From positions 1-28,386 of IMG/VR virus record IMGVR_UViG_3300010293_000031: a stretch of 28,386 nt of DNA. One strand, given 5' to 3'. The first letter of the stretch is position 1; each line of letters begins with the position of its first letter. A program made the translations under genes and the position numbers. This DNA comes from a virus. The notes below the pieces were generated by a model that saw only the letters and a list, made by a program, of their open reading frames with translations, was not told where the DNA came from and made no database searches. Below, piece by piece: positions 5,197-27,646 of the stretch.

Positions 5197-5464
5197 GATA
5201 GTGATTGTTGTCTACAAGGGAGTGATGTACGTGGGGCAGTGTACTTGGAACTCAGGGAATGCGTTCATCCTGCGCTCCCCGCGTGTTATCATAATACAGC
5301 AGGGAAAGGCTTCTGTTATGGTTCGGTTCGAGGTACTCTTTGGAGAGCCTGAGACAGTTACAATAACGAGCGAGATGTATTGGGCACCAACGAACGAGGA
5401 ACTGCTTAAGGAGTATGCGGCGCACTGCTCCGGCTTAATTCTTGCGAAAGGAGGAACCGCGTAA
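5186..5464 (+). CDS. Hypothetical small beta-rich protein, 92 aa
   Basis: GTG 5186 is preferred because GGGGGAGAGG lies at 5173-5182; the ATG at 5159 is further inside the ligase gene. The product is 92 residues, dominated by short beta strands (IVIVVYKGVMYVGQ, ASVMVRFEVLFG) with one C-terminal helix (TNEELLKEYAAH), consistent with a small barrel-like fold. No catalytic motif is visible. It shares a TAATG stop-start with queD and is therefore the gene immediately ahead of the deazaguanine block. Involvement in that pathway is not shown. Confidence 0.6.
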   Translation: MENEIVIVVYKGVMYVGQCTWNSGNAFILRSPRVIIIQQGKASVMVRFEVLFGEPETVTITSEMYWAPTNEELLKEYAAHCSGLILAKGGTA

Positions 5465-5817
5465 TGATCGTCGGGAGAACGTTCCACATCGATGCTGCCC
5501 ACCGCCTTCCCAACTACAGTGGGAAGTGTGCGAATGTACATGGGCACACCTGGAAGATTACGGTTGAGGTAGAGGGGGAGATCTGCCCAGAGACGGGGAT
5601 GGTCGTAGACCTTCACGACCTTAAGGAGGCCGTCGAAGAGGAGCTACGGAAGCTTGACCATAACGATCTCAATCGCTACATGGAGATCCCTACGTGTGAA
5701 AACATGGCGGAGAGACTGCTTCTTCGCCTCTCTGAGGAATGGGCAAAGGATGGGCATGTCTACTCAGTTCAAGTCCAAGAGGGGGAGGGTGGCTATGCAA
5801 GAGCAACAAGTAATTGA
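5464..5817 (+). CDS. queD: 6-carboxy-tetrahydropterin synthase QueD
   Basis: The 117-residue protein is a compact member of the 6-pyruvoyl-tetrahydropterin synthase fold. The zinc ligands H13 (FHIDAAH), H26 and H28 (VHGH) are present, as is the catalytic Cys22. Other family features are KLDHNDLN with H66, the PTCEN motif at 76-80 and the pterin-binding Glu106 near VQEGEGG. QueD converts 7,8-dihydroneopterin triphosphate to 6-carboxy-tetrahydropterin, the second step from GTP to preQ0. The start shares TAATG with the upstream gene. folE begins inside its last 23 bases, so QueD and the enzyme supplying its substrate are co-translated. Confidence 0.92.
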   Translation: MIVGRTFHIDAAHRLPNYSGKCANVHGHTWKITVEVEGEICPETGMVVDLHDLKEAVEEELRKLDHNDLNRYMEIPTCENMAERLLLRLSEEWAKDGHVYSVQVQEGEGGYARATSN

Positions 5818-6325
5818 GAAAGCCGTCGCCCAGATACTTAGTGCTTACAAGCTCGAAGGAGCGAACTTCTCAGGAACGCCAAAGAGGGTAAGTACGTGGC
5901 TTAATCAGTTCATGAAGATCTCTGAGCCTACACTGACAGTCTTCCCTCTAAGGGGCAAGCCAGGGATGATCGTCGTTAAGAATTACGTGACGTGGTCACT
6001 CTGTCCCCATCACCTACTTCCAGTAAGGTATGTCTTTCGCATTGGCTACATTCCGAGCAGGCTAGTCTTAGGACTAAGCAAGCTCCCTCGAATTGCTGAC
6101 TATCTCTGCTCCCGCTTATTGCTACAAGAGGAGATTCCCTACGAGGTAGTAAAGCGAATCGATGAAGCAGTCGATCCGAAGGGGAGCGGATGCACTCTAC
6201 AGGGGGAGCACCTCTGCATGCAAATGCGGGGCATTCGATCGTCCTGTGTACAGGCAGCCTCATCGTCAATGAGCGGCGTCTTCTTGATAAGTGAGGCAAC
6301 GAGGGAGGAGTTTCTTCAACTATAA
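5795..6325 (+). CDS. folE: GTP cyclohydrolase I FolE
   Basis: The 176-residue protein has the core of GTP cyclohydrolase I: C70-P-H72-H73 (CPHHLLPV) and the second cysteine, C141, in GEHLCMQMRG, as zinc ligands, plus the conserved GLSKLPRIADYL and LQEE segments at 93-113. It would open GTP to dihydroneopterin triphosphate, feeding QueD. It is shorter than bacterial FolE (about 220 residues) because the N-terminal helical region is reduced. ATG 5795 has GGGGGAGGG just upstream; extending the frame further would only overlap queD. It sits between queD and queE in a clear biosynthetic order. Confidence 0.92.
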   Translation: MQEQQVIEKAVAQILSAYKLEGANFSGTPKRVSTWLNQFMKISEPTLTVFPLRGKPGMIVVKNYVTWSLCPHHLLPVRYVFRIGYIPSRLVLGLSKLPRIADYLCSRLLLQEEIPYEVVKRIDEAVDPKGSGCTLQGEHLCMQMRGIRSSCVQAASSSMSGVFLISEATREEFLQL

Positions 6326-6340
6326 CGAAAGGAGAGACAC

Positions 6341-6967
6341 GTGTACAAAATACACGAGATCTTTTACTCCCTTCAGGGAGAGGGAGAGAACGTAGGCAAA
6401 GCAACGGTCTTTGTTCGCTTTTGGGGGTGTAATCTTAGCTGTTCGTTCTGTGATACTCCGCAGAGCAAGGGAGAGAAGAGGTCACTGTCTGCAGAGGACA
6501 TATGGAAGGAGGTGAGGGCTTCTCATCCCAAAGGGCTTCTTTCTACTGTATGCTTTACAGGAGGAGAGCCACTATTACAGCTCGATGCAGAGCTCATTCA
6601 GGTGGGGAAGGCGTACGGATACCGAAGCTTTACCCTCGAGACGAACGGGACACTGTCGCTAAGTGATCCACTGCGAACGGAGGCACGATTCTTTTGGATT
6701 ACAGTTAGCCCAAAGAATGGACACGTTGACCCGCGCCTCGTCCGAATCGAGGCTGACGAGATACGCTTCCCATTTACAGAGGAAAGGCAAGAGGAGATAC
6801 TGTACTTCGTGCTCAGTCACAGGCCGAACGCTTCTCTCTATGTCAGCCCTATCAATGAAATGCGGAGGGTCGATCTAAAGAATGTCCAGGCGGCAGTCCG
6901 CTTCTGCTTGGACTATCCGCAGTTTCGACTGAGCACACAGATGCATAAACTATGGAGGATAAAATGA
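6341..6967 (+). CDS. queE: 7-carboxy-7-deazaguanine synthase QueE
   Basis: This 208-residue radical SAM enzyme has a C30-x3-C34-x2-C37 cluster motif (WGCNLSCSFC), the SAM-binding GGEP at 74-77 and ETNGT at 100-104. The N-terminal EIFYSLQGEGENVG is the QueE hallmark, and the protein ends with QMHKLW. It contracts 6-carboxy-tetrahydropterin to 7-carboxy-7-deazaguanine using a 4Fe-4S cluster. Translation starts at GTG 6341 after AAAGGAGA at 6328-6335. Its TGA overlaps the start of queF (ATGA), so the two are coupled. Length and motifs indicate an intact enzyme. Confidence 0.92.
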   Translation: MYKIHEIFYSLQGEGENVGKATVFVRFWGCNLSCSFCDTPQSKGEKRSLSAEDIWKEVRASHPKGLLSTVCFTGGEPLLQLDAELIQVGKAYGYRSFTLETNGTLSLSDPLRTEARFFWITVSPKNGHVDPRLVRIEADEIRFPFTEERQEEILYFVLSHRPNASLYVSPINEMRRVDLKNVQAAVRFCLDYPQFRLSTQMHKLWRIK

Positions 6968-7341
6968 AGCATTTACACGAGAAGAATGAGCAGTACGCGG
7001 AACCGAGCGTTGAGATTCTCGATACCTTCACCGACCCAGGAGTGTGTATTGTCGAGCTCGAGCAGAAGGAGTTCACCTCGCTCTGTCCCTTGACGCATCA
7101 GCCTGATTATGGCGTGATTACGATTGAGTACGTACCCAGGAGATTGTGCATCGAATCGAAGAGCCTTAAGCTCTACCTCAGCGCCTATAGGCAAGTCGGG
7201 GCATTCGCAGAGACCATCGCAGCGAGAATCTGCGGTGATCTCGACGAAGTGCTACAGCCACAATGGATACGAGTGACGGGTCGATTTGCCTCGCGAGGGG
7301 GTATCTCGATACTGGCGAGAGCAGAGAGGGGGGCACTATGA
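6964..7341 (+). CDS. queF: QueF-type preQ0 reductase
   Basis: The 125-residue protein matches the single-domain QueF family. The thioimide-forming cysteine is C41 in EFTSLCPLT, the general acid is D48 in QPDYG, and the core motif IESKSLKLYL lies at 63-72 followed by SAYR. A C-terminal GRFASRGGISI also fits. QueF reduces preQ0 to preQ1 with NADPH. Where the family normally has His-Glu after the core motif (FHE), this protein has FAE: A82, E83. Start ATG 6964 has GGAGG five bases upstream and overlaps the queE stop. It is about 40 residues shorter than cellular QueF, at the C-terminus. QueF points to a preQ1-level rather than a preQ0-level product. Confidence 0.85.
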   Translation: MKHLHEKNEQYAEPSVEILDTFTDPGVCIVELEQKEFTSLCPLTHQPDYGVITIEYVPRRLCIESKSLKLYLSAYRQVGAFAETIAARICGDLDEVLQPQWIRVTGRFASRGGISILARAERGAL

Positions 7342-8012
7342 CAAGCTTATCCTTTGAGGTTCCTGTACAGCACCTCGATGACTTCGACGATCTTCAGGAC
7401 CACCTCTTCGTACTCTCTTTCTTAGTACACAGAGAGGCGTATACGAAGTACCTGAGGGAGAAACGGCGAAACAGGGTCATGATTCTCGATAACTCTTTCA
7501 ATGAACTGAATGAGGCACAAAAGCCGGAGGAGATGCGGCAAGCCTATGATCTCATCGGACCGGACTATACTATCTCGCCTGATGATGATATGTGGACGGA
7601 GAGTGAGATGCTTCGAGCTTATGACAGCATGCTCGCTTTGCGCTTTCTCCCCAGTGAGCTAATCCTCCCGGTGAGATCACACGAAGAGTATCTCTCAGCG
7701 AGACGTTACGGAATAAAGAACTTAGCAGTGCCCTATGAGTACCGACCGCTCTTCGGTTCGAAGATGGTGTGGGAGAGAGTACACTTCCTCGGCCTTAGAG
7801 ATCCGATCGAGCTTACGGCAATCGAGCCAATCTCGTGTGACACGTCCATGCCGATTAAGCTCGCTCTCAGGGGGCAGACACTCAGAGACTGGATCCTGGA
7901 GTGCTGCCCGCATATCCAGACAACGCCGGGCTTCTTCGATCAGCGGATGTCGAATGAGCAGATTGAGTTTGCTCGGCAGAATATCCTAAGCCTGAAGGAG
8001 CTACTCAAATGA
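7338..8012 (+). CDS. dpdA: DpdA-type DNA guanine transglycosylase
   Basis: The 224-residue protein has the features of phage DpdA, a distant relative of tRNA-guanine transglycosylase with a TIM-barrel fold. MILDNSFNELN at 48-58, TISPDD at 78-83, HFLGLRD at 149-155 and SCDTSMP at 166-172 carry the conserved acidic residues. DpdA exchanges guanine in DNA for a 7-deazaguanine base. It lacks the zinc-binding C-terminal part of tRNA enzymes, as expected for the DNA-acting branch. The ATG overlaps the queF stop (ATGA), and the gene lies directly after the four-gene biosynthetic run. The DpdA subfamily cannot be assigned by eye. A tRNA-acting enzyme is less likely because of the small size and motifs. 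Confidence 0.8.
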   Translation: MTSLSFEVPVQHLDDFDDLQDHLFVLSFLVHREAYTKYLREKRRNRVMILDNSFNELNEAQKPEEMRQAYDLIGPDYTISPDDDMWTESEMLRAYDSMLALRFLPSELILPVRSHEEYLSARRYGIKNLAVPYEYRPLFGSKMVWERVHFLGLRDPIELTAIEPISCDTSMPIKLALRGQTLRDWILECCPHIQTTPGFFDQRMSNEQIEFARQNILSLKELLK

Positions 8013-8329
8013 AAGACAATATAAACTACCCTGCGCACTACCTGCGAGGGAAGATCGAGGTGCATGATTTCATCGCTGATCAGGGGTGCGACTGGGATGC
8101 AGGGAACGTGCTAAAGTATGTGTGTCGCTATCGAGATAAGGGAGGGCTTGAGGACCTGCTCAAAGCTCAATGGTACCTTAATTCACTTATACGGAGGTAT
8201 AAAAATGAATGTGACCGTGCTCTACTCGCGGACGGGCCGATCTGCCCAGCTCCTCAAGAGGATCGTGAGGTGCGAGACACTGACAGTAGTGGAGGGGGCG
8301 CTTCTACACAGCTTCCCCTTCCCTTCTGA
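8009..8329 (+). CDS. DUF3310 protein with an extra overlapping C-terminal tail
   Basis: Residues about 5-65 match the DUF3310 (SaV-like) phage family: NYPAHYLRGKIEVHDFI, then GNVLKYVCRYRDKGG and LLKAQWYLNSLI. The biochemical role of the family is not settled; a nucleotide-kinase annotation is carried by some members. The domain ends at about residue 65, where the formyltransferase gene begins in another frame. The last 41 residues are low-complexity (TDSSGGGAST) and end in QLPLPF at the very C-terminus, similar to the QLxLx(L/F) peptide that binds bacterial sliding clamps. The start overlaps the dpdA stop as ATGA. The 125-base overlap with the next gene is unusually long for this genome. Confidence 0.78.
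   Translation: MKDNINYPAHYLRGKIEVHDFIADQGCDWDAGNVLKYVCRYRDKGGLEDLLKAQWYLNSLIRRYKNECDRALLADGPICPAPQEDREVRDTDSSGGGASTQLPLPF
8193..8197 (+). promoter_or_regulatory. Ribosome binding site of the formyltransferase gene
   Basis: GGAGG at 8193-8197 lies seven bases before ATG 8205 and inside the DUF3310 coding frame. It supports a start that makes the two genes overlap by 125 bases. The N-terminal strand MNVTVLYS expected of the formyltransferase fold begins exactly there. Confidence 0.7.
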
Positions 8330-8672
8330 CACGATACTTGTCAGCTTGGGATATATGTATCGTATCCCAAGGGGTATCTATGAGCGGTACCCTACAATAA
8401 ACGTACACCCTGGGGGTCTGCCTGAGCTTGCAGGAAGGCATCCGCAAATACGAGCTTTGGCAGATCTAAAGAGAGAATCGACCTCCGTTGTATTACATCA
8501 AATTACATCTGACCGATATGATGAGGGGCCTATACTTCTACAGGTGGAAGTGAAGATTACGGAGGCAGATCGAGATGACCCTCTCTACTTTATGGAGCGT
8601 ACTCGACAAATCGGAGTGCATCTCGTAGCTGCCTATCTTATCGGAAAGGGGGCTGAGTTAGTTGAACTGTGA
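8205..8672 (+). CDS. dpdN: Formyltransferase, putative dPreQ1 formyltransferase DpdN
   Basis: The 155-residue protein has the formyl-transferase fold of GART and Met-tRNA formyltransferase. After an N-terminal strand (MNVTVLYS) come TINVHPGGLPELAGRHP at 64-80, with the catalytic N66-x-H68 pair, and YDEGPILLQ with D106. These are the Asn-His-Asp triad of enzymes that move a formyl group from 10-formyltetrahydrofolate to an amine. It has no tRNA-binding C-terminal domain and is shorter than GART (about 200 residues). Lying among queF and dpdA, its likely amine substrate is the aminomethyl group of preQ1, in DNA or free. That fits DpdN, the enzyme proposed for formylated dPreQ1 in phages. The fold is seen; the substrate is inferred. 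Confidence 0.72.
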   Translation: MNVTVLYSRTGRSAQLLKRIVRCETLTVVEGALLHSFPFPSDTILVSLGYMYRIPRGIYERYPTINVHPGGLPELAGRHPQIRALADLKRESTSVVLHQITSDRYDEGPILLQVEVKITEADRDDPLYFMERTRQIGVHLVAAYLIGKGAELVEL

Positions 8673-10875
8673 TCAATGTACACTCGACGGAAGGACGTGT
8701 CAGAACTACATTCCTCGGCAGAGTCAGTGGCCTGTCCTCTTCATTGGGCAGGCCCCGGGGAAGACCGAGATCATTACAGGAATGCCCTTCACGGGCTCGG
8801 CGGGTAAAATGCTATACTCGCTCTGTCAAAGCGCAGGTCTCTATAAGCGGGACATTCCCCAAGCGAACCTCGTTCTTTGCAAGCCTCCCGATGATGGGAA
8901 AGGGAATGACCGAGCCCCCACCTCACTCGAGATGCAGTGCTGTGAGGAGTCTCTGAAGGAGACGATTGGACAGGTCCGCCCCGAACTGATCGTCGCCTTT
9001 GGAACAGTGGCAGCGAAGGAACTGACAGGCCTCGGTCCAGTCTCAAGCCTGCATGGTGGCTTTTACCCCCTCCTCCCCCGGTGGGAATGGGAGTGTCAAG
9101 TGTTGTGCTGCTACCATCCAAGCTTTGTAATGAGGCAGAGACAGCAGATCCCGGTCGCAATTAAAGACCTCGCCCTCGTCAATACGTTTTTTACACAGGG
9201 CATTAAAAAGAGAGGGGAGATAAACTATATCCTCGATCCAAGCGTGGAGGAGCTCCGCGAGTACCTCGAGCGAGGGCGAGGTAAGGTGACGGCCTTTGAT
9301 ACGGAGACGACAGGCTTAAATAAGAGGAAGGATAGAGTGATAGGCTGCTCTTTCTGTAACTCCGTAGAGGATGCTTGTGCTATATACTTCGTCGAGAATG
9401 ACTCAAGGCTCGGAGCGATCAGGGAGTTTCTCGAGGATGAGCAATTCAAGAAGTGCACCCAAAACGGCTCCTATGATATGGAGATTGTATTCAACTCTCT
9501 TGGAATTGAGGTAAGGGGGTGGGTGTTTGATACAAAGATTGCTGAGCAGCTACTTAACAGTGATTTACCTAAAGATCTCGATCATCTTCGTGCTATGTAC
9601 ACGGATATGGAACCGTATAAACCGAGTAAGAAGGAGGTTGCTCAAATGCAGTATTGGGGCAAGGAAAAGATGCTCCTATATGCTGCAAAGGATGCTCTTT
9701 GTACAGAGCTCGTACGCCGAGCTCAGGAGCCTCTTCTTGGGGAACAGCAGAAAGACCTTATGAAGGAGCTGCTCATTCCGGCCTCCCTCGCTCTTAACAA
9801 AATGGAGCGGCGGGGAATGGATGTAGATGTAAATACACTTGCAGTGATGTATGCGAACGTTATTCCCGAAATCGAACAGCTCGAGCAGGAGATAAGGGAG
9901 GAGCTTGGCATCTCGATCTCCTCACCGAAGCAGATTACGAGTTACTTTAACATTGATTCCTCAGATCGAGAAGCACTTGAAGCTCTTGTTACAAGAGGAC
10001 ACGAAAAGAGCGAAGCGATACAGAAGATACTTCGTCATCGTGACTTGAGTAAAGGCGCTTCGACCTTCTTAAGGGGCGTGTACGAAAGACTCGAGGATGG
10101 GAAGATTCATACCGAGTACAACATCTCAGGAACAGGGACAGGAAGACTGAGCTCAAAGAATCCGAACCTTCAGAACGTGCAGAAGAAGTATCGTGCTATT
10201 TACGTTCCACCCTCAGGGCATGTAACTCTAAGTGGGGATTACAAACAGCTTGAGCTCCGTGTTGCAAGTATCTTAGCGCCGTGTGAGATGCTCGCGCAGG
10301 CTTTAAGAGACGGCGTAGACGTACATAATCAAGTGCTCGAGCAGATTAGGGAGTACATCCCTGAGAGACTCCTCTGGAATGCTCGAAACGTCGCAAAGCA
10401 GGTCGTCTTCGGTACTCTTTACGGAAGATCGGCAAGGTCGATTGCGATTCAGTTTGGCGTTACGATAGCGTCTGCAGAGAGCTGGCAGGACATGTGCTTT
10501 AATCGATTCCCAGGACTAAGGAAGTACTGCCAAGATCGAATGACGGATTACAGGCAAAGGGGCTTCGTTACGACGCCCTTCGGTCGGAAGCGTTACATTC
10601 AGACGTATATGCAGGCAGTGAATGCACCGATACAGAGTAGTGCGAATGATATAAAGCTTGGAGCGCTCATTAAGCTCGATGAGGAGGGCTTCGATCTTCG
10701 CCTCGATGTACATGACGCTATTGTCTGCGTTGTACCAAAGAGGGCACTGCGGGGGAAGGCGAGGAGGATGAAGGAGCTACTCGAATACGAAGTGCCCGAA
10801 ATGGGCGGGGCCTCATTCAAAGCGGAGATGGAGTGGGGGGAGAACTGGTATGAAATGAAAGGAGTAGAGATATGA
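8662..10875 (+). CDS. Uracil-DNA glycosylase / PolA-type DNA polymerase fusion
   Basis: This 737-residue fusion starts with a family-4-like uracil-DNA glycosylase: C3-x2-C6, GQAPGKTE at 29-36, GMPFTGSAG at 40-48, C73, C93/C94 and a HPSFV motif. The cysteines fit a 4Fe-4S cluster. A 3'-5' exonuclease follows (FDTETTGL from residue 212, then NGSYD and YAAKD). The family A polymerase domain carries motif A DYKQLELR (D526), motif B RNVAKQVVFGTLYG (R575, K579) and motif C VHDA (D685). Motif C is normally HDE; here Glu is Ala. The only usable start is TTG 8662, because an in-frame TAG lies immediately before it. Phage SPO1 DNA polymerase has a comparable N-terminal domain. It is probably the replicative polymerase. 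Confidence 0.9.
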   Translation: MNCDQCTLDGRTCQNYIPRQSQWPVLFIGQAPGKTEIITGMPFTGSAGKMLYSLCQSAGLYKRDIPQANLVLCKPPDDGKGNDRAPTSLEMQCCEESLKETIGQVRPELIVAFGTVAAKELTGLGPVSSLHGGFYPLLPRWEWECQVLCCYHPSFVMRQRQQIPVAIKDLALVNTFFTQGIKKRGEINYILDPSVEELREYLERGRGKVTAFDTETTGLNKRKDRVIGCSFCNSVEDACAIYFVENDSRLGAIREFLEDEQFKKCTQNGSYDMEIVFNSLGIEVRGWVFDTKIAEQLLNSDLPKDLDHLRAMYTDMEPYKPSKKEVAQMQYWGKEKMLLYAAKDALCTELVRRAQEPLLGEQQKDLMKELLIPASLALNKMERRGMDVDVNTLAVMYANVIPEIEQLEQEIREELGISISSPKQITSYFNIDSSDREALEALVTRGHEKSEAIQKILRHRDLSKGASTFLRGVYERLEDGKIHTEYNISGTGTGRLSSKNPNLQNVQKKYRAIYVPPSGHVTLSGDYKQLELRVASILAPCEMLAQALRDGVDVHNQVLEQIREYIPERLLWNARNVAKQVVFGTLYGRSARSIAIQFGVTIASAESWQDMCFNRFPGLRKYCQDRMTDYRQRGFVTTPFGRKRYIQTYMQAVNAPIQSSANDIKLGALIKLDEEGFDLRLDVHDAIVCVVPKRALRGKARRMKELLEYEVPEMGGASFKAEMEWGENWYEMKGVEI

Positions 10876-11525
10876 GTGAACAGAAAGCGCTTGTACTTTT
10901 CAGCGGGGGGCAAGATTCAACAACGTGTCTCTTTTGGGCGAGGAGGCGATTCACAAAAGTTGAAACAGTAGGCTTTCTCTACAATCAGAGACATGTAGAA
11001 CGGGAGATTGAGGCACAGCTTGCGATTACGCGTATGCTAGACATGCCTTCTCCTCACTACATCCCTCTCACTACCGAAAGCTCGGCTCTCACGGGGGAGG
11101 GGGATCTGAGTGAGATGAAGCGCGGTCTCCCTGCTTCCTTCGTCCCAGGACGCAACATACTAATGTTGACACATGCAGCGAGTTTAGCGTACTTCTTTAA
11201 TATTCATGTGCTCGTAGGAGGGATGTGCCAAACGGACTACTCAGGCTATCCGGACTGTAGAAGAGAGTTCATTGATTATATGGAGCATGCCTTAAGCGCA
11301 GGCCTTGCGTACGAGATACAGATCATAACTCCATTGATGTATCTCACGAAGAAGGAGTCAGTTCAAATGGCTATGCAGATGCCTGGCTGCCTTGAAGCTT
11401 TAGCATTCAGTCATACATGTTATGAAGGACGGAGGCCTCCCTGTGGGGAGTGCCCTGCCTGTAAGCTTAGAGCAAAGGGATTCGCGGAGGCAGGAGTAAC
11501 TGATCCGATCTTACAGATGAATTGA
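10872..11525 (+). CDS. queC: 7-cyano-7-deazaguanine synthase QueC
   Basis: The 217-residue protein has the ATP-pyrophosphatase PP-loop SGGQDST at 11-17, the QueC segments VPGRNILMLTHAASLA (91-106) and CQTDYSGYPDCR (119-130), and a zinc site formed by C183, C191, C194 and C197 near the C-terminus. QueC converts 7-carboxy-7-deazaguanine to preQ0 using ATP and ammonia. It is a plain QueC with no fused amidotransferase domain, so a direct archaeosine-type product is not suggested. It overlaps the polymerase stop as ATGA. It is the only deazaguanine gene separated from the rest of the block, by the polymerase gene. Confidence 0.93.
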   Translation: MSEQKALVLFSGGQDSTTCLFWARRRFTKVETVGFLYNQRHVEREIEAQLAITRMLDMPSPHYIPLTTESSALTGEGDLSEMKRGLPASFVPGRNILMLTHAASLAYFFNIHVLVGGMCQTDYSGYPDCRREFIDYMEHALSAGLAYEIQIITPLMYLTKKESVQMAMQMPGCLEALAFSHTCYEGRRPPCGECPACKLRAKGFAEAGVTDPILQMN

Positions 11526-12772: not shown

Positions 12773-13095
12773 TCGATTGGCATAGCATTCTATCAAAAAC
12801 AGAGTTCAAAGATCCGAGGGAGCTGCTCATTGATCGCTACTGCGAGAAGAGGCTTAGTATGCGGGAGATAGCTCTCGAGTTTAACGTCACACTTCCTACA
12901 ATTCGTAACTATCTGAATCGCTTAGGTATTAAAACGAGAGAGCGGGGAGGGGATAACTCAACTAAGGCAGTCGATATCTCTCTTGAAGACTATGAATCGA
13001 TGACGTACGAGGAGCTCTCAAAAAAGTACGGTGTCAGTCCGTGGATGATTTGGAAGAGAACAAGAGGCTTCCCTCTGAAGAGGAGACGGAGCTAA
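12769..13095 (+). CDS. Double helix-turn-helix DNA-binding protein
   Basis: The 108-residue protein starts at GTG 12769 (GTGA overlap, GGGAGG at 12754-12759). It contains two helix-turn-helix modules: LSMREIALEFNVTLPTIRNY at 29-48, followed by LNRLGIKTR, and TYEELSKKYGVSPWMIWKR at 79-97. The C-terminus is strongly basic (PLKRRRS). It has no catalytic domain, so it is probably a sequence-specific DNA binder. As the last gene of the early arm, it is a candidate regulator of the early-to-late switch, although phage proteins of this type can also be nuclease accessory factors. Its stop overlaps the stop of the convergent virion gene. Confidence 0.65.
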   Translation: MIDWHSILSKTEFKDPRELLIDRYCEKRLSMREIALEFNVTLPTIRNYLNRLGIKTRERGGDNSTKAVDISLEDYESMTYEELSKKYGVSPWMIWKRTRGFPLKRRRS

Positions 13096-15737
13096 CGGCC
13101 ACGCTCCTCCCGCTCCTGCGCACGAGACTCCTTTAGTTGTGCATACTTGTAGAGGATATCCTCTCGCTCACTGTCATTGCGTGCTCGACGTAGTTCATGA
13201 TTCATTTGAATACCCATCTCGCTAAGATGTATCTGCTCGATGGCTTGCGCTTTACGTTGAGCAGCCTCTAGATTAACGGGGGACATTTTCATACCGAGCA
13301 TAGAGGCAAGAGCCTGCGGACCGGAGAGTGATTCGGGTACGTCAGTGAAAGTGTCCCAGAGCATATTCCAGTCGGTCCCGCCAGGCATTACGGCTGGCAT
13401 AAGCTGTTCCCAAACGTAGGCAGCAGATTTGGCAAACTTAGTGCCTGGGGCTTCCCAATCGTAATACATGGGGGCTCCAGAGTACTTTGTCTTAGTGAGC
13501 AAGGAGCCTGCAATCGTAAGAGCGGGGTTCGAGAGGAAGAAGGCCATTGGGCCATTCAGCAGTTGATTCACGTCCCCAAAGCCGGGCAGCATATAAGTCA
13601 TATTCATCATATTCAGGCGGCCCTGATCGTCTCGCCAAGGCATAACGAAGAACATTCCCTTTTTTATGTACTCGGGAAGAGAGCCTTCTACACTTTGCCA
13701 CTCGCTGTCTGTAATACCGCTTTCTCGAATTCCATAATTTTGTAGGGCCTGATAGAGCGAAATCATTGTAGTAAACTGTACGGGATTCTTTACAGCAGCT
13801 TCTGCCATTAGAGGAATGATCTTACTTTGCCATGTATAGAAGGGCGCGAGGTTGGAGCGTACACGGGCTGTAAAGCGAGTTACCTCTCCATAGTTAAAGG
13901 TCCACTTTACGGCGTCCCACGCGGCCTCGCTCTTAGATATGCCCTGATCAAGATTGTGGAGGTATTTGGCAAACTTAAACATGCTCTCCTGAGCGTTGTA
14001 CAATTTTACGGAAGGCTGCATTACCCTGTCAAAAACGCTCATTGCTCCATCGATCATATTGGCGTTATAGCGAAGTCCCTCGTGCAGGGTGTTAATCTCA
14101 TTGACACTGAAGTTCCCTCCCGCTCCGGTCGTTCGAGAAAACTGCTTCCACTCAGGAGAGCCCTTCTGCATTCCCCTTAGTGCCTGAGTGTATGTATCCA
14201 AATGCCAGAAGGGTAGACCTCCAATATGATTAAGCATTGTATTCGAGAAGAGGTTGCGCATCTGAGCGGCCGGACGAGGCATGATTTTAGTCATCTTCCA
14301 TGGTGAGAGGAAGTACTTATTGAACATACTATGTGCAATCTTCGGTATTGCCTGTAGAGCACGAAGCTCCAGTTCCACGTCCCGCTGTACAAAGAGCGGT
14401 TCCCCCTTACGCACAAACGGAGCCCATTTAGAAGCGAGATAGTCCCCACTTCCGGGCTTTGGATCGTAGGCACGCACAACGCCACTATACCCTTTGAGCT
14501 TTGAAGCAAGATAAGCAGTTGCAGTATCCTTCGATGCTTGAGCAACTTCCTCAGGAATACTTGCCGGGAGGTTATGCACCATTCTTGCTAGAGCCTTGAA
14601 CTCGGGAGCAACGAGAGGATCCTCGATAGCGGAAACGAGAGTCCTCTGGATTTGGCGGACACTTGCTTTCCCGCTAAGACCCTGCTCAAGAGACTGAAGG
14701 AAAGCGCGAGGGGCAGGACCGAGGAACATCTCCTCAGGGGCCTCGACACTCTTTGTGAGGAGCTTCGAGACTTTATTACGAAATTCGAGCTCGTAGGGAC
14801 CTCGAAGCTGCATGTCCTGAATACGCCCCTCAAACTTATCGAGTACCCCGACAGCTTCCGGAGAGAGCTGCGCTTGCGATGTCCCTCGTAAGCCTCGAAC
14901 GACGTCATAGCGAGCTGTCGGAGTAAGAGAGCGAAGATCCTGCCCGAGCTCCTCACCTGTCTTCGTAGTTAAGGCCTTCATTGCCTGCGTTGTGCGGAAG
15001 GTACTCTGTAGATTCTTAGACATTCGTTCTACAGCAGGCTGCATAACATCTGCAATGCTCTTCTTAACGACCTCTGTAGCTCCGCGGCCCTCGAGGGAGC
15101 GCTCGAGAGTGGGAAGAATGCGAGCCTTAAAGGGAGGGACAACAATGTTCTCCCAGACATAATTCGTAACAGGCCTTAGAGCTTCATCTGCGTACTTAAT
15201 CGGAGCATATGCTACATCGAGGGCCCCCTTCATGCCCTTAAAGGCGTACTTGATCGGGCCACCAAGCCACTTAGACTTTCCCGGAGTGAAGAGGCCCACA
15301 AGACCGGCATTGAGGGCGATCTCCTCATTTGAGGACGAAGGTGAGGTAAGGGATTGCATTAGTTCGAGGCCCGCAGCTCCAGCGAAGGCGGCCGGCTTGA
15401 GAGTGAGCTGAAGGACATCCTTAGCGGTCTCTTTAGCAGTCTCGAGTCTGTCTGGGCTAAACAATAGCTCCCGAATGACGGAGACGGGCTCTGTAAGAGT
15501 CCTTCCTCCAATGAGGTGAAGAACATCCTCCCCAAAGGAGGTCTTCTGCGGCGCCCATATTCCAGGCTCTCTCTCCTCCGGTCTGCTATACGTTACAAGG
15601 GAGCCAAAGTTAGTCGAAGGCTTTACGGCAACGGGCTTTGTAGACAGGACGGGAGAGGGCAGCTCCGTTGAGGCAGGCTCCTCTGGAAGAAGTTCGGGGT
15701 GACTATCGAACATTTCTTCAATCGATGGGATTGCCAT
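13092..15737 (-). CDS. Large putative internal virion (ejection) protein, 881 aa
   Basis: This is the largest protein in the window and the last of the late arm. The first 60 residues are Pro/Ser-rich, then come Ala-rich helical stretches (around 100-155) and long helical segments. A conserved-looking block near residues 480-700 contains PRPAAQMRNLFSN and APFYTWQSKIIPLM. The Asn-rich MLNHIGG and aromatic-rich helices resemble large phage structural or polyvalent proteins rather than an enzyme. No lysozyme or transglycosylase motif was recognised. It starts at ATG 15737 (TGATG overlap) after TAGGAGG. Podoviruses carry proteins of this size inside the head for ejection with the DNA; that role is inferred from size, order and composition. 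Confidence 0.6.
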   Translation of the reverse strand: MAIPSIEEMFDSHPELLPEEPASTELPSPVLSTKPVAVKPSTNFGSLVTYSRPEEREPGIWAPQKTSFGEDVLHLIGGRTLTEPVSVIRELLFSPDRLETAKETAKDVLQLTLKPAAFAGAAGLELMQSLTSPSSSNEEIALNAGLVGLFTPGKSKWLGGPIKYAFKGMKGALDVAYAPIKYADEALRPVTNYVWENIVVPPFKARILPTLERSLEGRGATEVVKKSIADVMQPAVERMSKNLQSTFRTTQAMKALTTKTGEELGQDLRSLTPTARYDVVRGLRGTSQAQLSPEAVGVLDKFEGRIQDMQLRGPYELEFRNKVSKLLTKSVEAPEEMFLGPAPRAFLQSLEQGLSGKASVRQIQRTLVSAIEDPLVAPEFKALARMVHNLPASIPEEVAQASKDTATAYLASKLKGYSGVVRAYDPKPGSGDYLASKWAPFVRKGEPLFVQRDVELELRALQAIPKIAHSMFNKYFLSPWKMTKIMPRPAAQMRNLFSNTMLNHIGGLPFWHLDTYTQALRGMQKGSPEWKQFSRTTGAGGNFSVNEINTLHEGLRYNANMIDGAMSVFDRVMQPSVKLYNAQESMFKFAKYLHNLDQGISKSEAAWDAVKWTFNYGEVTRFTARVRSNLAPFYTWQSKIIPLMAEAAVKNPVQFTTMISLYQALQNYGIRESGITDSEWQSVEGSLPEYIKKGMFFVMPWRDDQGRLNMMNMTYMLPGFGDVNQLLNGPMAFFLSNPALTIAGSLLTKTKYSGAPMYYDWEAPGTKFAKSAAYVWEQLMPAVMPGGTDWNMLWDTFTDVPESLSGPQALASMLGMKMSPVNLEAAQRKAQAIEQIHLSEMGIQMNHELRRARNDSEREDILYKYAQLKESRAQEREERGR

Positions 15738-16909
15738 CAGAGACCTCCTACCTCTTTCTCAAGCTCGCCCCATATCTCATTGAGTAGCTTCGCCTCCCGA
15801 GGCCACTGCTTAGCAAACTTTGAGGGATCCTCACGCCAACGAAGGCCGCTGCGGATAAAGTACTCCCGTGTATCAATGAGTCGCGCCTTCCCAGAGCTGC
15901 CCTTCTTTAGCATCTCCCACATGTGTCCACTTACGGAGCGTTTCCCTCCCATGAACTTCCACATTCGCTCAAGCAACTCAGCCGTCGAGAGTACCTCCTT
16001 AATATCTGCGGGAGCGCCAATCGTTTTCGATGCTTCAGAGCGAGCCTTCTGCTCGAAGGGAGTCTCAACTCCACGATACTTAAGGGTCTCATAGTTTATT
16101 CGAGGGGAAGTGATGTCCTTAAGAGCCCCAGGCCCTATCTCCTCGGGAGTAAGAGGGGCGACGGAGAGCCTCTTTACAGGCTTCGGAACACCTCCTGGAG
16201 CATAGAGATCAGGGCGCTCTTTATAAAGAGCGCGTGCTTCATCGAGAGGGAAGTCTCTAAAGGCTCCCCCGGGAGTATCTCTTGCCTCCTCACTAAGTAG
16301 ACGAAGCCGTCCCATCAGTCTTTCGCTCTCTGGGGACTGAGCCATAATTTGGTCAATAGCTGAGGGCATCCTCGCTCTTTGTCCCTCACCCCCAAGAGTA
16401 GCCTGAAGGGCTGCGCCTCGAGGAGACTGCACAACCGAAGGGGCCGGCCATGCCCGAGGAGATCCGGCGCGGAGTCCTTCTCTCCACTGCCCCTGAAGAG
16501 AGAGATCTCGCGGTATAAGGAGAGGAAGCTCTGTCTGTACGCCTAGCTCGCCCGGTCCGACCTTAAGAGCTTGAGCACGAATGTTATCCACCATCGCTTG
16601 CGCAGGATCCTTATGCGCAATACCCGCTAAGCTCTCTAAAGGGCCTGGGGACTGAAAGCCCAGCTCAGGGCTTAGTCCTCGGTAGGAGCTTGCCTCCCCC
16701 GCGAGGTAACGAGGAGGTGCCTTGCCAAAGAGAAAATCAACCTCAGGGGGTCCGCCTCCCACGGGAATCATTCCCTTTGGGGCATTGAGAAGCTCTCCCT
16801 CTCCCCTTTGAGCAAGCCTCTGAGGGATGCCCTGCTCACGTGCAACAACTCGCTCTAAAAGACTTTTCCACTGCCCTGAGGTTAGCTTAACGATAGGCTT
16901 TGTATTCAT
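15737..16909 (-). CDS. Putative internal virion protein, 390 aa
   Basis: The 390-residue protein begins MNTKPIVKLTSGQWKSLLER. Residues about 40-170 are rich in Pro, Gly and Ala and look disordered (LLNAPKGMIPVGGGPPEVD), whereas the C-terminal 130 residues are more regular and helical. No enzyme motif is visible. The stop overlaps the start of the 881-residue gene as TGATG, so the two are translationally coupled and may act together. The upstream ribosome site is weak (AGGATGG). The function is inferred only from position in the late operon. Confidence 0.55.
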   Translation of the reverse strand: MNTKPIVKLTSGQWKSLLERVVAREQGIPQRLAQRGEGELLNAPKGMIPVGGGPPEVDFLFGKAPPRYLAGEASSYRGLSPELGFQSPGPLESLAGIAHKDPAQAMVDNIRAQALKVGPGELGVQTELPLLIPRDLSLQGQWREGLRAGSPRAWPAPSVVQSPRGAALQATLGGEGQRARMPSAIDQIMAQSPESERLMGRLRLLSEEARDTPGGAFRDFPLDEARALYKERPDLYAPGGVPKPVKRLSVAPLTPEEIGPGALKDITSPRINYETLKYRGVETPFEQKARSEASKTIGAPADIKEVLSTAELLERMWKFMGGKRSVSGHMWEMLKKGSSGKARLIDTREYFIRSGLRWREDPSKFAKQWPREAKLLNEIWGELEKEVGGL

Positions 16910-16912
16910 GTA

Positions 16913-18328
16913 TTACCATCCTATGTATCGACCAGTCTTTTCAGTAAGCCACCTGTTGATTGAGCCCATATCATTTGGAATAATGACATCCTTTGTCCCA
17001 GTCCGTAATGTTATGGGACGACGTATCTTATCCATTGCTTTCAGTGTCGGAACGTCATCAAGTAGGTTAGTGGAGCGCTCCCCCCTCTTCACATTGAAGC
17101 GATCGTAAATCGCCTCCGCGGTGCTTCGTATACTCTCAAGGAGCTCATCGGACTCGCGTGCCTTAACGGCAAGCTCGAAGGAGCGAGCAAGGCGATCGAT
17201 TGCATTGTGTGCATAATTCACCTGCTTCATTCCGTAATGGGACATGCGTACCACAGTCTTACTTGTCTTTGCATCGGCGACCTCTTCATAAAAGGGGAGG
17301 TGGCCAGTCTGATCGAGAAAGTCAACAATGCTGTAGACATCACGAACCGCTCCCTTAATGCTATCGACAGCCTTCCCAGTACTTATTGCCTGAGTACGAT
17401 CACGAAGAGCTTTACGAAGAGCGGTTTCTGCATCCCGCATCTCCTTGTCCTGGGAGTCCCTAAGGGTGCGAGCATCCTTTGCATCCTGTCGTGTCCATTC
17501 CAGCTTCAGCTTATTTGCCTCGAGGGTGTTTGCTCTAGCTAATTCACGCTGAGCCTTCTCCTCAGGAGACTCTGTCTTCTCGGCCCTTGTAGTTAATGAC
17601 TCACCCTGCGCTGTCTGCAGGGCGATCTGACTTTCTGCCAGCGGTTTAACCTGGGCAGTCTCTGCGATGGTCTTCCCTGCCATGGCCTCGTTCTTTACTG
17701 CCTCAGAGGGAAGGACTTTGGCATGCTCTTTGTAGTAGTCAGTCTTAGCAAGATCCTCCAGCTCCTTACTGAAGAGGAGTTGGCGAGTGCTTGGCATTGT
17801 AGATGACGAGACGTCCCTGCCCGCTTCACCAAGCTCCTCAGGGCCGCTTTGAGTAGCCCCTGTGCCTTCAGCAATCGCCCCCGCTTTCTGCTGCTCAAGC
17901 GTGCCTACGCGAGGCGCAAAGGAGAGTGCCCCAGTCGTAGGGTCTTGGATAATAGGGGCCATCCCAGCAAACATTCCCTGCCATTTACTGAGGCGAGACT
18001 GAAAGCCTGGGTTCTGTGCAATATTATCACGGAGGGACTGAGGCATCGTTGGGTCCGAGAAGAGCTGATAAGCCTTCATCATCATGTCGTGCTGAACTGC
18101 CGGATCCGATTCCATTCTAAGAGTGTTCTTCTTAGCCTCGGCGAGAGGGTCCAGATATGACTTCTGTACAAAGTCCCCTAGCCCTTTCCCAAGTGCCTCA
18201 CCTACCGGCCCCCAACCACGATCAGTTGTGCCAAGCTGAATCGGTATGTAACCCGAGCGCTGCGGAGGGGCCGTAAACTGAGGACGATTTGCGTACATAT
18301 TGGCTAGCGTAGAAATAAAGTCAGCCAT
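16913..18328 (-). CDS. Putative internal virion protein with long coiled coil, 471 aa
   Basis: The protein has a Pro-rich N-terminus followed by an almost continuous charged helical region from about residue 210 to 340 (LARANTLEANKLKLEWTRQD, DAETALRKALRD). That region should form long helices or coiled coil. The end (NRWLTEKTGRYIGW) is rich in aromatics. No enzyme motif was seen. Long helical proteins encoded after the nozzle gene are typical of podovirus ejection proteins that form a tube through the envelope, but this is inference. The start at 18328 has a perfect AGGAGG, which lies in the last two Arg codons of the upstream gene. Confidence 0.55.
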   Translation of the reverse strand: MADFISTLANMYANRPQFTAPPQRSGYIPIQLGTTDRGWGPVGEALGKGLGDFVQKSYLDPLAEAKKNTLRMESDPAVQHDMMMKAYQLFSDPTMPQSLRDNIAQNPGFQSRLSKWQGMFAGMAPIIQDPTTGALSFAPRVGTLEQQKAGAIAEGTGATQSGPEELGEAGRDVSSSTMPSTRQLLFSKELEDLAKTDYYKEHAKVLPSEAVKNEAMAGKTIAETAQVKPLAESQIALQTAQGESLTTRAEKTESPEEKAQRELARANTLEANKLKLEWTRQDAKDARTLRDSQDKEMRDAETALRKALRDRTQAISTGKAVDSIKGAVRDVYSIVDFLDQTGHLPFYEEVADAKTSKTVVRMSHYGMKQVNYAHNAIDRLARSFELAVKARESDELLESIRSTAEAIYDRFNVKRGERSTNLLDDVPTLKAMDKIRRPITLRTGTKDVIIPNDMGSINRWLTEKTGRYIGW

Positions 18329-18332
18329 ACCA

Positions 18333-19421
18333 TTACCTCCTGAGAATGCTTCTTAATGCACTTGTTCGAGCATTCGTTGCTTGATTAGGATAGGCACCTG
18401 CCCGTAAGAGAGCCAAGTATTGAGCGTAGGGCGAATTAGCAAAGGAGAACATGGGGCTTTGTACGCCCTGCTGTCTTTGAGTAGAGGAGAGTATATACGG
18501 GGCGCCTTGTCCTTGCTCACCTTGCCTACCTTGTATAGCGTACGGATTCCCTGGGGCTTGTGGCTGTGTAAGAGCCTTTAGGCCAGTCTTAAGTGCAGTC
18601 TTTCCTGCAGCGGATGCGAGCTTGTTAGTAGTTGAGGAGCCTGCAGCTGAAGAACCTGCCGAGAGAGAATTGTACCCTGCCCCAAGATTCTTTCCTGCTA
18701 CCGTCCCTCCGAACTCTGAGGCATTAAAAGCTGTTCCCTCTGCTCCAGGAGCTGATGCAGAGCTCTCCCCACCCCCTCCAAAGAGATATGCAAGAGCTCC
18801 CTTCATTGCTGCCTTTGTCCATGATGAGTCTGGATCCTCCTCATTGAATTGAGAAGTAAGACCTGAGGTAGCCATGACACCAGGATAACCATAAAGAGCT
18901 GCGCCAATAGCGTCTACAATAGCGGGGAACGTTCCCTTCTTCATCCATTCAGGAAGATTGCGGCCCGTTCCTGCAGCAAAGAGACCTGTTGTTTGAGTCG
19001 GCTCAATGAGGGAGTTAATGAAGGCGCCCCATGACCCCTTCCTCTCGTTCTCTTCGAGGCGTCCAGCCATCCTCTTGAAGTCATTATTCCCACCAACAAG
19101 TGAACCTATCCCCTCGAGGGTCCACTTTGCAGGAGCCTGTAAAACACGTGTTGCTTGTCCCCAGAACCCTCCATCCGACTCCTTTGGAGTGAAGGGGGTT
19201 GTCTGAGCCATTCCAAGGACGCCTTCTTCGGGCTTGAGATCCGTTTTATTCTTCTCGTTGTACTCCCTGAGGGCTGCTAAATACTTCTGATCTATAGCAT
19301 TCTTGGAGGCAATGGTATCGGCATCCGTAGTCCAGGCACGATCTATGTCAATGCCGAACTTCGCGATATGCTCCTCGCGGAAAGCATTGAAGAAGTCTAT
19401 CCACTTCGGGACGGCGCTCAT
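18333..19421 (-). CDS. Putative virion protein rich in Gly, Ser and Ala, 362 aa
   Basis: The N-terminal third is helical and charged (FREEHIAKFGIDIDRAW). The middle has hydrophobic or amphipathic segments (FPAIVDAIGAALYGYPGVMA), and residues about 215-290 are a Gly/Ser/Ala-rich low-complexity stretch. The C-terminus is Gln-rich and basic, ending SILRR. This mix is common among internal or membrane-interacting phage proteins. The start overlaps the upstream stop as ATGA. The last two codons, AGG AGG, double as the ribosome site of the next gene. No homologue is recognised. Confidence 0.55.
   Translation of the reverse strand: MSAVPKWIDFFNAFREEHIAKFGIDIDRAWTTDADTIASKNAIDQKYLAALREYNEKNKTDLKPEEGVLGMAQTTPFTPKESDGGFWGQATRVLQAPAKWTLEGIGSLVGGNNDFKRMAGRLEENERKGSWGAFINSLIEPTQTTGLFAAGTGRNLPEWMKKGTFPAIVDAIGAALYGYPGVMATSGLTSQFNEEDPDSSWTKAAMKGALAYLFGGGGESSASAPGAEGTAFNASEFGGTVAGKNLGAGYNSLSAGSSAAGSSTTNKLASAAGKTALKTGLKALTQPQAPGNPYAIQGRQGEQGQGAPYILSSTQRQQGVQSPMFSFANSPYAQYLALLRAGAYPNQATNARTSALRSILRR
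18336..18341 (-). promoter_or_regulatory. Ribosome site made of the last two Arg codons of the upstream gene
   Basis: On the minus strand the final codons AGG AGG and the stop TAA of the 362-residue gene are followed closely by ATG at 18328. The consensus AGGAGG is thus coding sequence and ribosome site at once, which fixes both the C-terminal Arg-Arg and the start of the next gene. Confidence 0.7.
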
Positions 19422-20821
19422 TCCTCACCCCATAAGCTCGTAAGCCATGCCCAGAACTGGCTAAATGGTATGTTAGAGAGAGCGCTTCCTGCAAGGCCTG
19501 CGAGAGCGCTCCCTCCCTGCCCCGAGAGGAAGCCGTAGCCGAGTCCCGGCCCTTGTGTATTGGTCGTACCCGCATACCCGAATGGACTAAGGCCAAGAAG
19601 AGACATAGCGAACTGGATTGAGGGATTCGCGAGTCTATTGATAGAGCCTCCTACTGGTTCTCCCATAAGCCATCTCTGTAGTTGAGAAGCGACCTGCTCG
19701 TTAGAGATTTGTCGGGAGAGTGCACCAGCTGTACCTAACTCCTGCCCCTGTCGAGCTTGCTGAGCCTCAGCCAGCTGTGAGTAGCCTAAGCCAATCTTTC
19801 CTACATCAGAGTACACACCTGCTTCGGCTCCTGCAAGTGTCGCTCCGACTGATTGTTCGACCCCGAGAGCCTTGAGCATCCTCTCCATTGCACTCTCTCT
19901 AGCCCCGCGCTCTGCCGTAATGTCTTGCCAGAGAAGATTTGCGCGCTGTGCGGCAAGAGCTGTTTCAACATCCACTCCCGCCCTGGCCATGTTTTGAAGA
20001 GTATCGGAGGAGTGAAAACCTGCTCCACTTGCGGCCTCCATTGTCTGCGGAAGGATCCGCTGTTCGTATTCTCTCATTGCGGGATTCTGGAAGGCCGTCT
20101 CATAGTACTTTTCTCTCTGCGCCGGGTCAACGGTAAAAGCAGGCATGCCTGTGAGGAGAGAGACACGAGCGCTCTGCTGCAGGGGGTCCTGCGAATTGGA
20201 CGGGTATGCAGCACGTAGAGCACCAATACCTCTATCTGCCCCTCCTCCGGATAGAGCCATCGCTCTAGCCATAACAGGGTCCATGGAGGGCTGCCCTATG
20301 AAGGAGAAGAAGGCCTGCTCCTCAGGAGTTCGAGGAGTGTAAAGCATCCCAGGGTAGGTAGAAGGCTCTCCCCCTCCGAATTGCTGTATCATCCAATTAA
20401 AGAGGTTCTGCTGCTGCTGATTCCACCAGGGGAGCTGAGTCGGCGTCGTTGTTGATGAGCCAGCTGAGAATGGATCCCTTTCCACTCCTTTATCAGGAGA
20501 GGACATAGCGATGGGGGAGGAGTTTCCCTCAGTATTAGTAAGTGTACGGAGTAGCGCCAGTAGACCAGAAGAGGGGGACTCTCCACTTCCGCCTCCAAAC
20601 TGCCCCATAAGCCGCTTATAGATCTCATTCCCTCCATAGAGGGATTGTCCCGATGCTCCGGGCGAGAGTAAGCCTAGCAACTGCTTAAGGCGCCCCTCCT
20701 CCCCTCCGTTCCACTGAGGGTACTGTCCCGATGCTGTTGATAAGATAGACGGAAACGTTGCTGACAATTCCCTAAGTAGGGCATTATTAACATTATCATT
20801 ATCATTATCAAAGATGCTCAT
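19418..20821 (-). CDS. Putative virion protein, 467 aa
   Basis: The 467-residue protein begins MSIFDNDNDNVNNALLRELS and contains Gly/Ser/Gln-rich stretches (residues 30-140). A helical middle region follows, with repeated Ala-rich segments (AGVDVETALAAQRANLLWQD), then a Gly/Leu-rich C-terminus (LAGLAGSALSN) ending in an aromatic amphipathic segment (FSQFWAWLTSLWGEE) that could touch membranes. Its place directly after the nozzle gene matches podovirus ejection proteins. No enzymatic motif was found. Start ATG 20821 has GGGAGGAAGG upstream. Confidence 0.55.
   Translation of the reverse strand: MSIFDNDNDNVNNALLRELSATFPSILSTASGQYPQWNGGEEGRLKQLLGLLSPGASGQSLYGGNEIYKRLMGQFGGGSGESPSSGLLALLRTLTNTEGNSSPIAMSSPDKGVERDPFSAGSSTTTPTQLPWWNQQQQNLFNWMIQQFGGGEPSTYPGMLYTPRTPEEQAFFSFIGQPSMDPVMARAMALSGGGADRGIGALRAAYPSNSQDPLQQSARVSLLTGMPAFTVDPAQREKYYETAFQNPAMREYEQRILPQTMEAASGAGFHSSDTLQNMARAGVDVETALAAQRANLLWQDITAERGARESAMERMLKALGVEQSVGATLAGAEAGVYSDVGKIGLGYSQLAEAQQARQGQELGTAGALSRQISNEQVASQLQRWLMGEPVGGSINRLANPSIQFAMSLLGLSPFGYAGTTNTQGPGLGYGFLSGQGGSALAGLAGSALSNIPFSQFWAWLTSLWGEE
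20792..20809. repeat. Three tandem copies of a hexanucleotide (ATTATC)
   Basis: ATTATC occurs three times in a row on the plus strand, which reads GATAAT three times on the coding strand and encodes Asp-Asn repeats at residues 5-10 of the 467-residue virion protein. Copy-number change would add or remove two residues without shifting the frame. Confidence 0.8.
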
Positions 20822-20837
20822 ACCCTTCCTCCCTCTA

Positions 20838-22760: not shown

Positions 22761-23137
22761 ACCGCCCTCTTTATACGAATGCGAAATGTTCCACCAGCGA
22801 GGTCGACTGTTCCGCCTGTCTCGTTCTGTAGTCTTATATTAACGAGCCCTGCGGACTTAACATAGCCAAAGCACAGCACCCCCTGCAGATCTTGATCGGC
22901 AGATACGCTGACATAGTCACCAAGTGTAGCTTCAGGAGCGGAGACATCCCCGCTTGTCTCTCCTGCCCCATCGCTGAGTGAGCCTGGATTCCACGAGTAC
23001 GTCTCCTCGAAGTATGTTCCCATCTCATCGACAAGAGCTTCATGCATCACTTGCAATTCACGGATAAGACGGGCGGCATAGTCAATGAGGGACTCATCCT
23101 TCTCAGGGTAGGGAAATATGTGGGTACGGGAGATCAT
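22757..23137 (-). CDS. Small beta-rich tail-associated protein, 126 aa
   Basis: An N-terminal helix (IDYAARLIRELQVMHEALVDEM) leads into a beta-rich C-terminal half (GDYVSVSADQDLQGVLCFGY, then TVDLAGGTFRIRIKRAV), consistent with a short helical stalk carrying a small beta-sandwich. It overlaps both neighbours by ATGA. Position between the fiber-assembly-like gene and the nozzle gene suggests a minor tail or fiber part. No family is recognised. Confidence 0.55.
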   Translation of the reverse strand: MISRTHIFPYPEKDESLIDYAARLIRELQVMHEALVDEMGTYFEETYSWNPGSLSDGAGETSGDVSAPEATLGDYVSVSADQDLQGVLCFGYVKSAGLVNIRLQNETGGTVDLAGGTFRIRIKRAV

Positions 23138-23646: not shown

Positions 23647-23655
23647 AGCGATCTC

Positions 23656-25527: not shown

Positions 25528-25528
25528 A

Positions 25529-25693
25529 TTACTTGCCTTTCGTGTTAAAGGCGATTGCCAATGCCTGCTTTCTCGCCTTCTCCATCCCCTGTGGTTTGGA
25601 CTTGCCGATCTTACCGGTCTTTCGATAGGTAGCTATGAGCTCGCTCATATTACTATCGAAGGCTTGCTGACTCTTTCCCTTTGTGAGAGGCAT
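25529..25693 (-). CDS. Small basic phage protein, 54 aa
   Basis: The 54-residue protein starts at ATG 25693 with AAGGAG seven bases upstream (25700-25705 on the minus strand). It begins MPLTKGKSQQAFDSNMSELI and ends ALAIAFNTKGK. This layout, a KGKS start followed by KPQ..KQA.AIA, is common in small phage structural-region proteins of unknown role (DUF6496-like). It is strongly basic and may bind nucleic acid or capsid. Confidence 0.75.
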   Translation of the reverse strand: MPLTKGKSQQAFDSNMSELIATYRKTGKIGKSKPQGMEKARKQALAIAFNTKGK

Positions 25694-25703
25694 CACTCGC
25701 TCC

Positions 25704-25861: not shown

Positions 25862-25873
25862 TAAGGTAAAGGA

Positions 25874-26635: not shown

Positions 26636-26668
26636 GTTATGATCCTCCTCAGGATGTGGCGTTAAGGG

Positions 26669-27634: not shown

Positions 27635-27646
27635 AGCCTATTCCTT

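Follow-up and report, generated by a model that had tools for sequence, protein, structure and literature searches.

For Campylobacter phages CP220 and CPt10, it was reported that 100% of the deoxyguanosine (dG) is replaced by 2'-deoxy-7-amido-7-deazaguanine (dADG) (PMC8306585). dPreQ1, the deoxynucleoside of 7-aminomethyl-7-deazaguanine (preQ1), was detected in the DNA of Streptococcus phage Dp-1 and Halovirus HVTV-1 (PMC8306585), and its presence in phage DNA has already been published (PMC8306585, PMC6884629). HVTV-1 was listed in 2019 among the viruses without a recognised DpdA (PMC6884629). This paper deals with an operon at positions 5464-11525 (plus strand) of the IMG/VR virus record IMGVR_UViG_3300010293_000031 from an uncultured virus, the whole stretch of 28,386 bases being referred to as the window. 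With every gene to be expected for such a route, this operon probably directs the synthesis of a hypermodified guanine, from GTP via 7-cyano-7-deazaguanine (preQ0) and preQ1 into DNA and finally to formyl-dPreQ1. The same predicted enzyme and product, DpdN and formyl-dPreQ1, were reportedly proposed by Cui et al. in 2023.

In Flavobacterium phage vB_FspM_immuto_2-6A (MW353175; immuto in the following), a cassette consisting of queD, queE, folE, dpdA, the formyltransferase gene immuto26A_67, queF and a family A polymerase gene contains nearly the same enzyme set as the window, with a homologous type of DpdA. The immuto formyltransferase has the same diagnostic residues as the window DpdN and adjoins dpdA and queF. 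However, the DpdA proteins are only about 22% identical, the immuto QueF has two domains and keeps the FHE motif, the formyltransferase has 175 residues, the gene order is different, no uracil-DNA glycosylase (UDG) domain was seen on the polymerase, and no queC was present in the stretch read. CP220 and CPt10 have a DpdA of the same broad type as the window, but in CP220 no QueF was found and the base, dADG, is a different one. Dp-1 and HVTV-1 resemble the window in having QueF alongside the preQ0 genes, while no formyl form was reported there. Enterobacteria phage 9g, which contains 2'-deoxyarchaeosine (dG+) and a DpdA of the DpdA1 type, shares the preQ0 pathway and a DNA transglycosylase encoded close to polymerase genes; however, its DpdA belongs to another profile family and a Gat-QueC route leads to dG+.

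In the proposed pathway, FolE, QueD, QueE and QueC would convert GTP to preQ0, which QueF would reduce to preQ1 with NADPH. DpdA would swap guanine in DNA for preQ1, and DpdN would transfer a formyl group, presumably from 10-formyl-tetrahydrofolate, onto the amine of the aminomethyl group, with 2'-deoxy-7-(formylamino)methyl-7-deazaguanine as the end product in phage DNA. This route, put forward in the initial annotation of the window, is supported as the best reading by the fold and motifs of DpdA, the family of DpdN and a QueF score above the cut-off, from which the base itself is predicted. We infer the identity of the DNA base, the enzyme activities and a protection from host restriction. 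Guanine replacement in this phage may be extensive, since its DpdA is of the type found in CP220, where all dG is replaced.

The modification type is already known, but each window enzyme has diverged strongly within its family, and together they represent a divergent branch. With this locus, the formylated 7-deazaguanine route also covers a lineage in which DpdA matched no family library tried. The locus further provides a signature separating DpdN from PurN and a collection of about 79 viral loci that connect dpdA, dpdN and queF (from the best 80 of 266 matches). Its close relatives form a natural series halting at different steps. The order of formylation, the assignment of DpdN and the base choice of DpdA become testable by one-residue changes and by the addition or omission of single genes.

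The divergent predicted DNA transglycosylase DpdA

The dpdA gene (7338-8012, plus strand) codes for a protein of 224 residues, assigned as a DNA guanine transglycosylase that forms a divergent branch within the immuto/CP220 type. Scans of this protein against Pfam, NCBIfam, PHROGs and PADLOC yielded no matching model, a tblastn search against phages gave no match, and a profile search of the PDB with six relatives resulted in a chance match only. An AlphaFold (AF2) model computed from six relative sequences reached a predicted local distance difference test (pLDDT) value of 92. In VIA-align, this model was best superimposed on the crystal DpdA 7ui4 (Z 14.3, root-mean-square deviation 3.3, 207 residues aligned), tied with tRNA-guanine transglycosylases (TGTs), and all 50 best rows were either DpdA 7ui4 or TGTs, which places the model among the TGT/DpdA TIM barrels. 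Entry 7ui4 is a crystal structure of a DpdA that inserts preQ0 into DNA. Because Foldseek places other TIM barrels beside TGT for the same model, the fold assignment is based on VIA-align plus the motifs.

TGT catalysis involves a general acid/base Asp, a guanine-binding Asp and a nucleophilic Asp. In the DpdA group, D51, D82 and D168 are invariant across 34 sequences, and by order and context they would correspond to these three residues, respectively. An HLLG...D motif was aligned to 7ui4, with a weak E-value of 0.02. From these features, the window DpdA is predicted to exchange bases in DNA. By profile comparison with hhalign, the window DpdA group matched the immuto/CP220-type DpdA proteins (including those of two viral contigs, L021 and L022) with a probability of 99.1 and an E-value of 5e-19, whereas the matches to the 9g type and to the phi38:2 type were below 1%; 9g and phi38:2 matched each other at 99.9%. 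The window protein is thus a member of the immuto/Campylobacter-phage type, presumably the one called DpdA3 in the literature, and not of the 9g type. A scan of genome contigs with the DpdA alignment revealed no relative, and consequently no host or prophage was found.

For the PHROGs family phrog_19058, annotated as of unknown function, a single-sequence scan missed the window DpdA and found the DpdA of the related contig L003 weakly (3e-5). The same family matched immuto DpdA with an E-value of 3e-56 and could be labelled DNA guanine transglycosylase. Unannotated DpdA-like proteins were also identified near folE or preQ0 genes (L126:9935-10705, L129:9896-10684, L127:9947-10741 and L128:9995-10867) in Weizmannia phage Youna2, Bacillus phage BSTP12, Chryseobacterium phage MA9V-3 and Aeromonas phage Ahp1, where they are annotated as hypothetical or as NadR. 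Apparent QueF matches in Youna2 and BSTP12 were rejected, lying inside annotated FolE genes.

The predicted formyltransferase DpdN and reductase QueF

The dpdN gene (8205-8672, plus strand) codes for a protein of 155 residues in which the formyl transferase domain PF00551 was found above its cut-off, with the Asn-His-Asp catalytic set aligned (N66, H68 and D106). A structure-based search, suggested together with the initial annotation, matched the DpdN model to formyltransferases with Z up to 14.4. PurN binds glycinamide ribonucleotide (GAR) by its GSN loop, which contacts the phosphate, and by Glu173. Compared to E. coli PurN, both are lost in DpdN, which has R12-S13 and a Gly at position 173 instead, and the protein reached 32.1 bits against a PurN cut-off of 150.1, placing it outside PurN.

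Viral contigs were searched with an alignment of formyltransferases only (window, L003 and immuto), and the best 80 of 266 matches, 79 of them new, were analysed, so that the counts describe the closest relatives and not all phage formyltransferases. A dpdA gene was present at 74 of the 79 loci, queF at 72 and both at 69; after dereplication at 90%, the numbers were 45, 41 and 40 of 48, respectively, with dpdA located directly upstream of the formyltransferase gene at a median gap of 26 bases. Several of the misses fall on truncated contigs; among the long contigs, L077 and L088 are the exceptions. A signature of S-x-[TS]-G, NxHPG and G-x-x-P was identified in nearly all 48 dereplicated proteins, none of which has Glu at position 173, whereas the corresponding residues of PurN are SGxGSN or SGxGTN and NxHP[SA]. 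The DpdN proteins of the window and L003 carry this signature as S-R-T-G, NVHPG and GRHP/GKDP. Cyanophage PurN proteins, used as a negative control, retained the PurN residues. In trees, the window and L003 proteins paired with each other and fell with the dpdA/queF-linked enzymes, apart from PurN, Fmt, ArnA and PurU; since long branches were flagged, the signature residues are given as much weight as the tree. As judged from its residues, clade and gene neighbourhood, DpdN is not a PurN enzyme but a member of a separate formyltransferase family linked to dpdA and queF.

The queF gene (6964-7341, plus strand) codes for a predicted NADPH-dependent preQ0 reductase (preQ1 synthase) of the short QueF-II type, which scored 121.9 bits with TIGR03139 at a cut-off of 86.9. 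In an alignment to B. subtilis QueF (4f8b), the protein retains Cys55, Asp62, the Glu and the ESKSLKLY motif, with Ala in place of His96. The catalytic Cys and Asp, the NADPH motif and the score assign the protein to the preQ1 synthases. The exchanged His belongs to the FHE motif and is usual in bacterial QueF; the single active-site residue noticed as missing from QueF in the initial annotation could thereby be identified. In L002, L003 and L007, this His is replaced by Thr, Thr and Cys, respectively, and in five other phage QueFs by Met, Asn or Gln, so that it is absent in 9 of the 17 phage QueFs compared. The catalytic Cys and Asp were retained in the phage QueFs compared and the NADPH-type motif in the short ones; in the two-domain QueF of immuto, this motif is located in the N-terminal half. 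Since the relatives and 9 of 17 compared proteins share the loss, it is regarded as a lineage trait and not as a fresh lesion, and the FHE His was not taken as defining QueF.

Nested relatives and a proposed order of the steps

In viral contigs, seven further records with relatives of the window DpdA were identified, two of them matching identically. L004, L005 and L006 contain folE, queD, queE and dpdA without queC, queF or a formyltransferase gene. L002 and L007/L008 have queC and queF in addition, without dpdN. Among these nearest relatives, dpdN is present only in the window and in L003, and never without queF; the order queF-dpdA-DUF3310-dpdN is common to both, despite a moved polymerase gene. 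The nested series, in which several records are fragments, would correspond to carboxy-deazaguanine, then preQ1, then formyl-preQ1, which makes L004, L005 and L006 candidate records for DNA with carboxy-deazaguanine.

In TGT, a loop lines the pocket for the 7-substituent, and E134 of the window DpdA is located in the presumably equivalent loop after the LAVP strand, four positions past A130. In phages with QueF, position 134 is E or D with or without dpdN (E in the window and D in L003, which have dpdN; E in L002 and L007, which do not), the exceptions being the closely related L091 and L094 with N. In phages lacking QueF, the residue is W, H, S, L, A, C or I. The DpdA tree requires three changes of QueF status, and residue 134 shifts with each; the pattern rests on these three events only, and some of the records are fragments. 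Since the acidic residue tracks queF and not dpdN, preQ1 would be inserted first and formylated in DNA; DpdA is thus suggested to take preQ1, with DpdN acting afterwards on the DNA.

The same final base would result from the opposite order, in which DpdN formylates free preQ1 and DpdA inserts formyl-preQ1. This order is compatible with dpdN being encoded beside dpdA and queF, and with the established fact that preQ0 and preQ1 themselves are made before insertion. However, the acidic loop residue of DpdA is the same with or without dpdN and altered when queF is absent, and a different pocket would be anticipated for a neutral formamide, so that formylation of the free base is considered unlikely. 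The identity of the base itself would change if the formyltransferase were a PurN-like enzyme of purine synthesis unrelated to the modification, leaving plain dPreQ1 in the DNA. Cyanophages do carry PurN, and among solved structures GAR transformylases are the closest in sequence, but the low PurN score, the loss of the GSN phosphate loop and Glu173, and the grouping of DpdN with dpdA/queF-linked formyltransferases make this very improbable.

A comparably small chance is given to a QueF that functions as archaeal QueF-L does, or that is disabled by the exchange of His to Ala, in which case the base would be archaeosine or a derivative at the level of preQ0. While the FHE His is missing and QueF and QueF-L are hard to distinguish in phages (PMC6884629), the window protein is above the preQ1-synthase cut-off, matches B. 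subtilis QueF (4f8b) with an E-value of 1e-21 as compared to 2e-4 for QueF-L (5jyx), and thus is not assigned to QueF-L. Its NADPH motif is intact, the same His is lacking in more than half of the phage QueFs compared, and a formyltransferase requires an amine acceptor. For phages with preQ0 genes but no dpdA, a role in boosting queuosine in the tRNA of the host was proposed (PMC6884629); in the window, a DpdA-type transglycosylase is encoded within the operon and none of the window proteins scanned was recognised as the product of a later queuosine gene, so that such a role in place of DNA modification appears extremely improbable. A dG+ reading was rejected.

Several points weigh against the synthesis of formyl-dPreQ1 by insertion of preQ1 and subsequent formylation. 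DpdN is about 39 residues shorter than E. coli PurN, in the N-terminal half, and its model is of moderate confidence (pLDDT 77). By hidden Markov model (HMM), no QueF was found in L077, a contig of 49.7 kb with dpdA and dpdN, nor in L088, a contig of 61 kb with the formyltransferase gene and queC, where no dpdA was found nearby. QueF lacks the FHE His, the match of the DpdA profile to E. coli TGT is weak (probability 21%), so that the equivalence of E134 to the TGT loop is a deduced one, and the CP220 loop around position 134 can be aligned in two ways. In addition, the source record may be a fragment.

Tentatively, and with somewhat less than even chances, a switch in this one loop of DpdA enzymes of this type, with or without an acid at position 134, might set which 7-deazaguanine enters DNA. 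Related phages might thereby change the base substituted for most of their guanines by gaining or losing queC and queF, and then dpdN, with carboxy-deazaguanine in L004-L006, preQ1 in L002/L007, and formyl-preQ1 in the window and L003.

Operon organization and neighbouring genes

The operon consists of queD, folE, queE, queF, dpdA, a DUF3310 gene, dpdN, a UDG-polymerase A gene and queC, all of them intact. Neighbouring genes mostly overlap by a few to 23 bases, a pattern of a translationally coupled operon. The same combination of genes was found in viral contigs of independent origin and is therefore not due to chance. QueD (5464-5817), a 6-carboxytetrahydropterin synthase, scored 95.6 bits with TIGR03367 (cut-off 89.25) and contains PF01242 with the Cys22, His26/His28 and His66 motifs. 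FolE (5795-6325, ATG at 5795, 176 residues), a GTP cyclohydrolase I, was identified by PF01227 (E 7e-36) and has the zinc/active-site motifs CPHH and EHLC, and the radical S-adenosylmethionine enzyme QueE (6341-6967, GTG start), a 7-carboxy-7-deazaguanine synthase, was identified by phrog_2076 (E 4e-37), PF04055 and a CX3CX2C motif. FolE and QueE were clearly recognised with Pfam and PHROGs, yet remained under the NCBIfam equivalog cut-offs, whereas QueD, QueF and QueC are all above the cut-offs of their curated models. For the preQ0 synthase QueC (10872-11525), the score was 184.4 bits with TIGR00364 (cut-off 150.3), and the SGGQDS and four-Cys motifs are present.

The gene between dpdN and queC (8662-10875, TTG start) codes for a fusion of a family-4 UDG, a 3'-5' exonuclease and a family A DNA polymerase (PF03167, PF01612, PF00476; phrog_17). 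Near full-length matches to this fusion were also found in relatives. The genes named in the initial annotation were recovered intact and in the described arrangement, with queC after the polymerase gene; its list had missed the DUF3310 gene and the N-terminal family-4 UDG of the polymerase. The position of the polymerase gene had also been taken to tie modification and replication together. This is not supported, and the idea of a conserved link was dropped, since the polymerase gene of L003 lies ahead of queF.

The DUF3310 gene (8009-8329; PF11753, E 1.6e-15), whose product shares homology with T7 gp1.7 (annotated as a nucleotide kinase) in the C-terminal domain of the latter, is located between dpdA and dpdN and overlaps dpdN by 125 bases. 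Its reading frame reaches far beyond the end of its domain into dpdN, and a past deletion may have shortened dpdN and lengthened this frame. In the window and in L006, dpdA is immediately followed by the DUF3310 gene. In L003 (4947-5831), dpdA is fused in frame to a DUF3310 domain, resulting in a protein of 294 residues; this is one metagenomic instance, in which the stop could have been lost by an assembly error.

A megablast search of 20 kb against phages matched nothing. Promoter-like sites in the window were not above chance (10 as compared to 11.5 expected), and the number of terminator-like sites (16 as compared to 11.3 expected, standard deviation 3.6) did not go beyond noise. After queC, a gene for a DUF3987-type primase follows at 11522. 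Opposed to this replication module, a structural module on the minus strand (13092-28351) contains the genes for a virion protein (20838-22760), a tail collar protein (23656-24231) and the major head protein (26669-27634).

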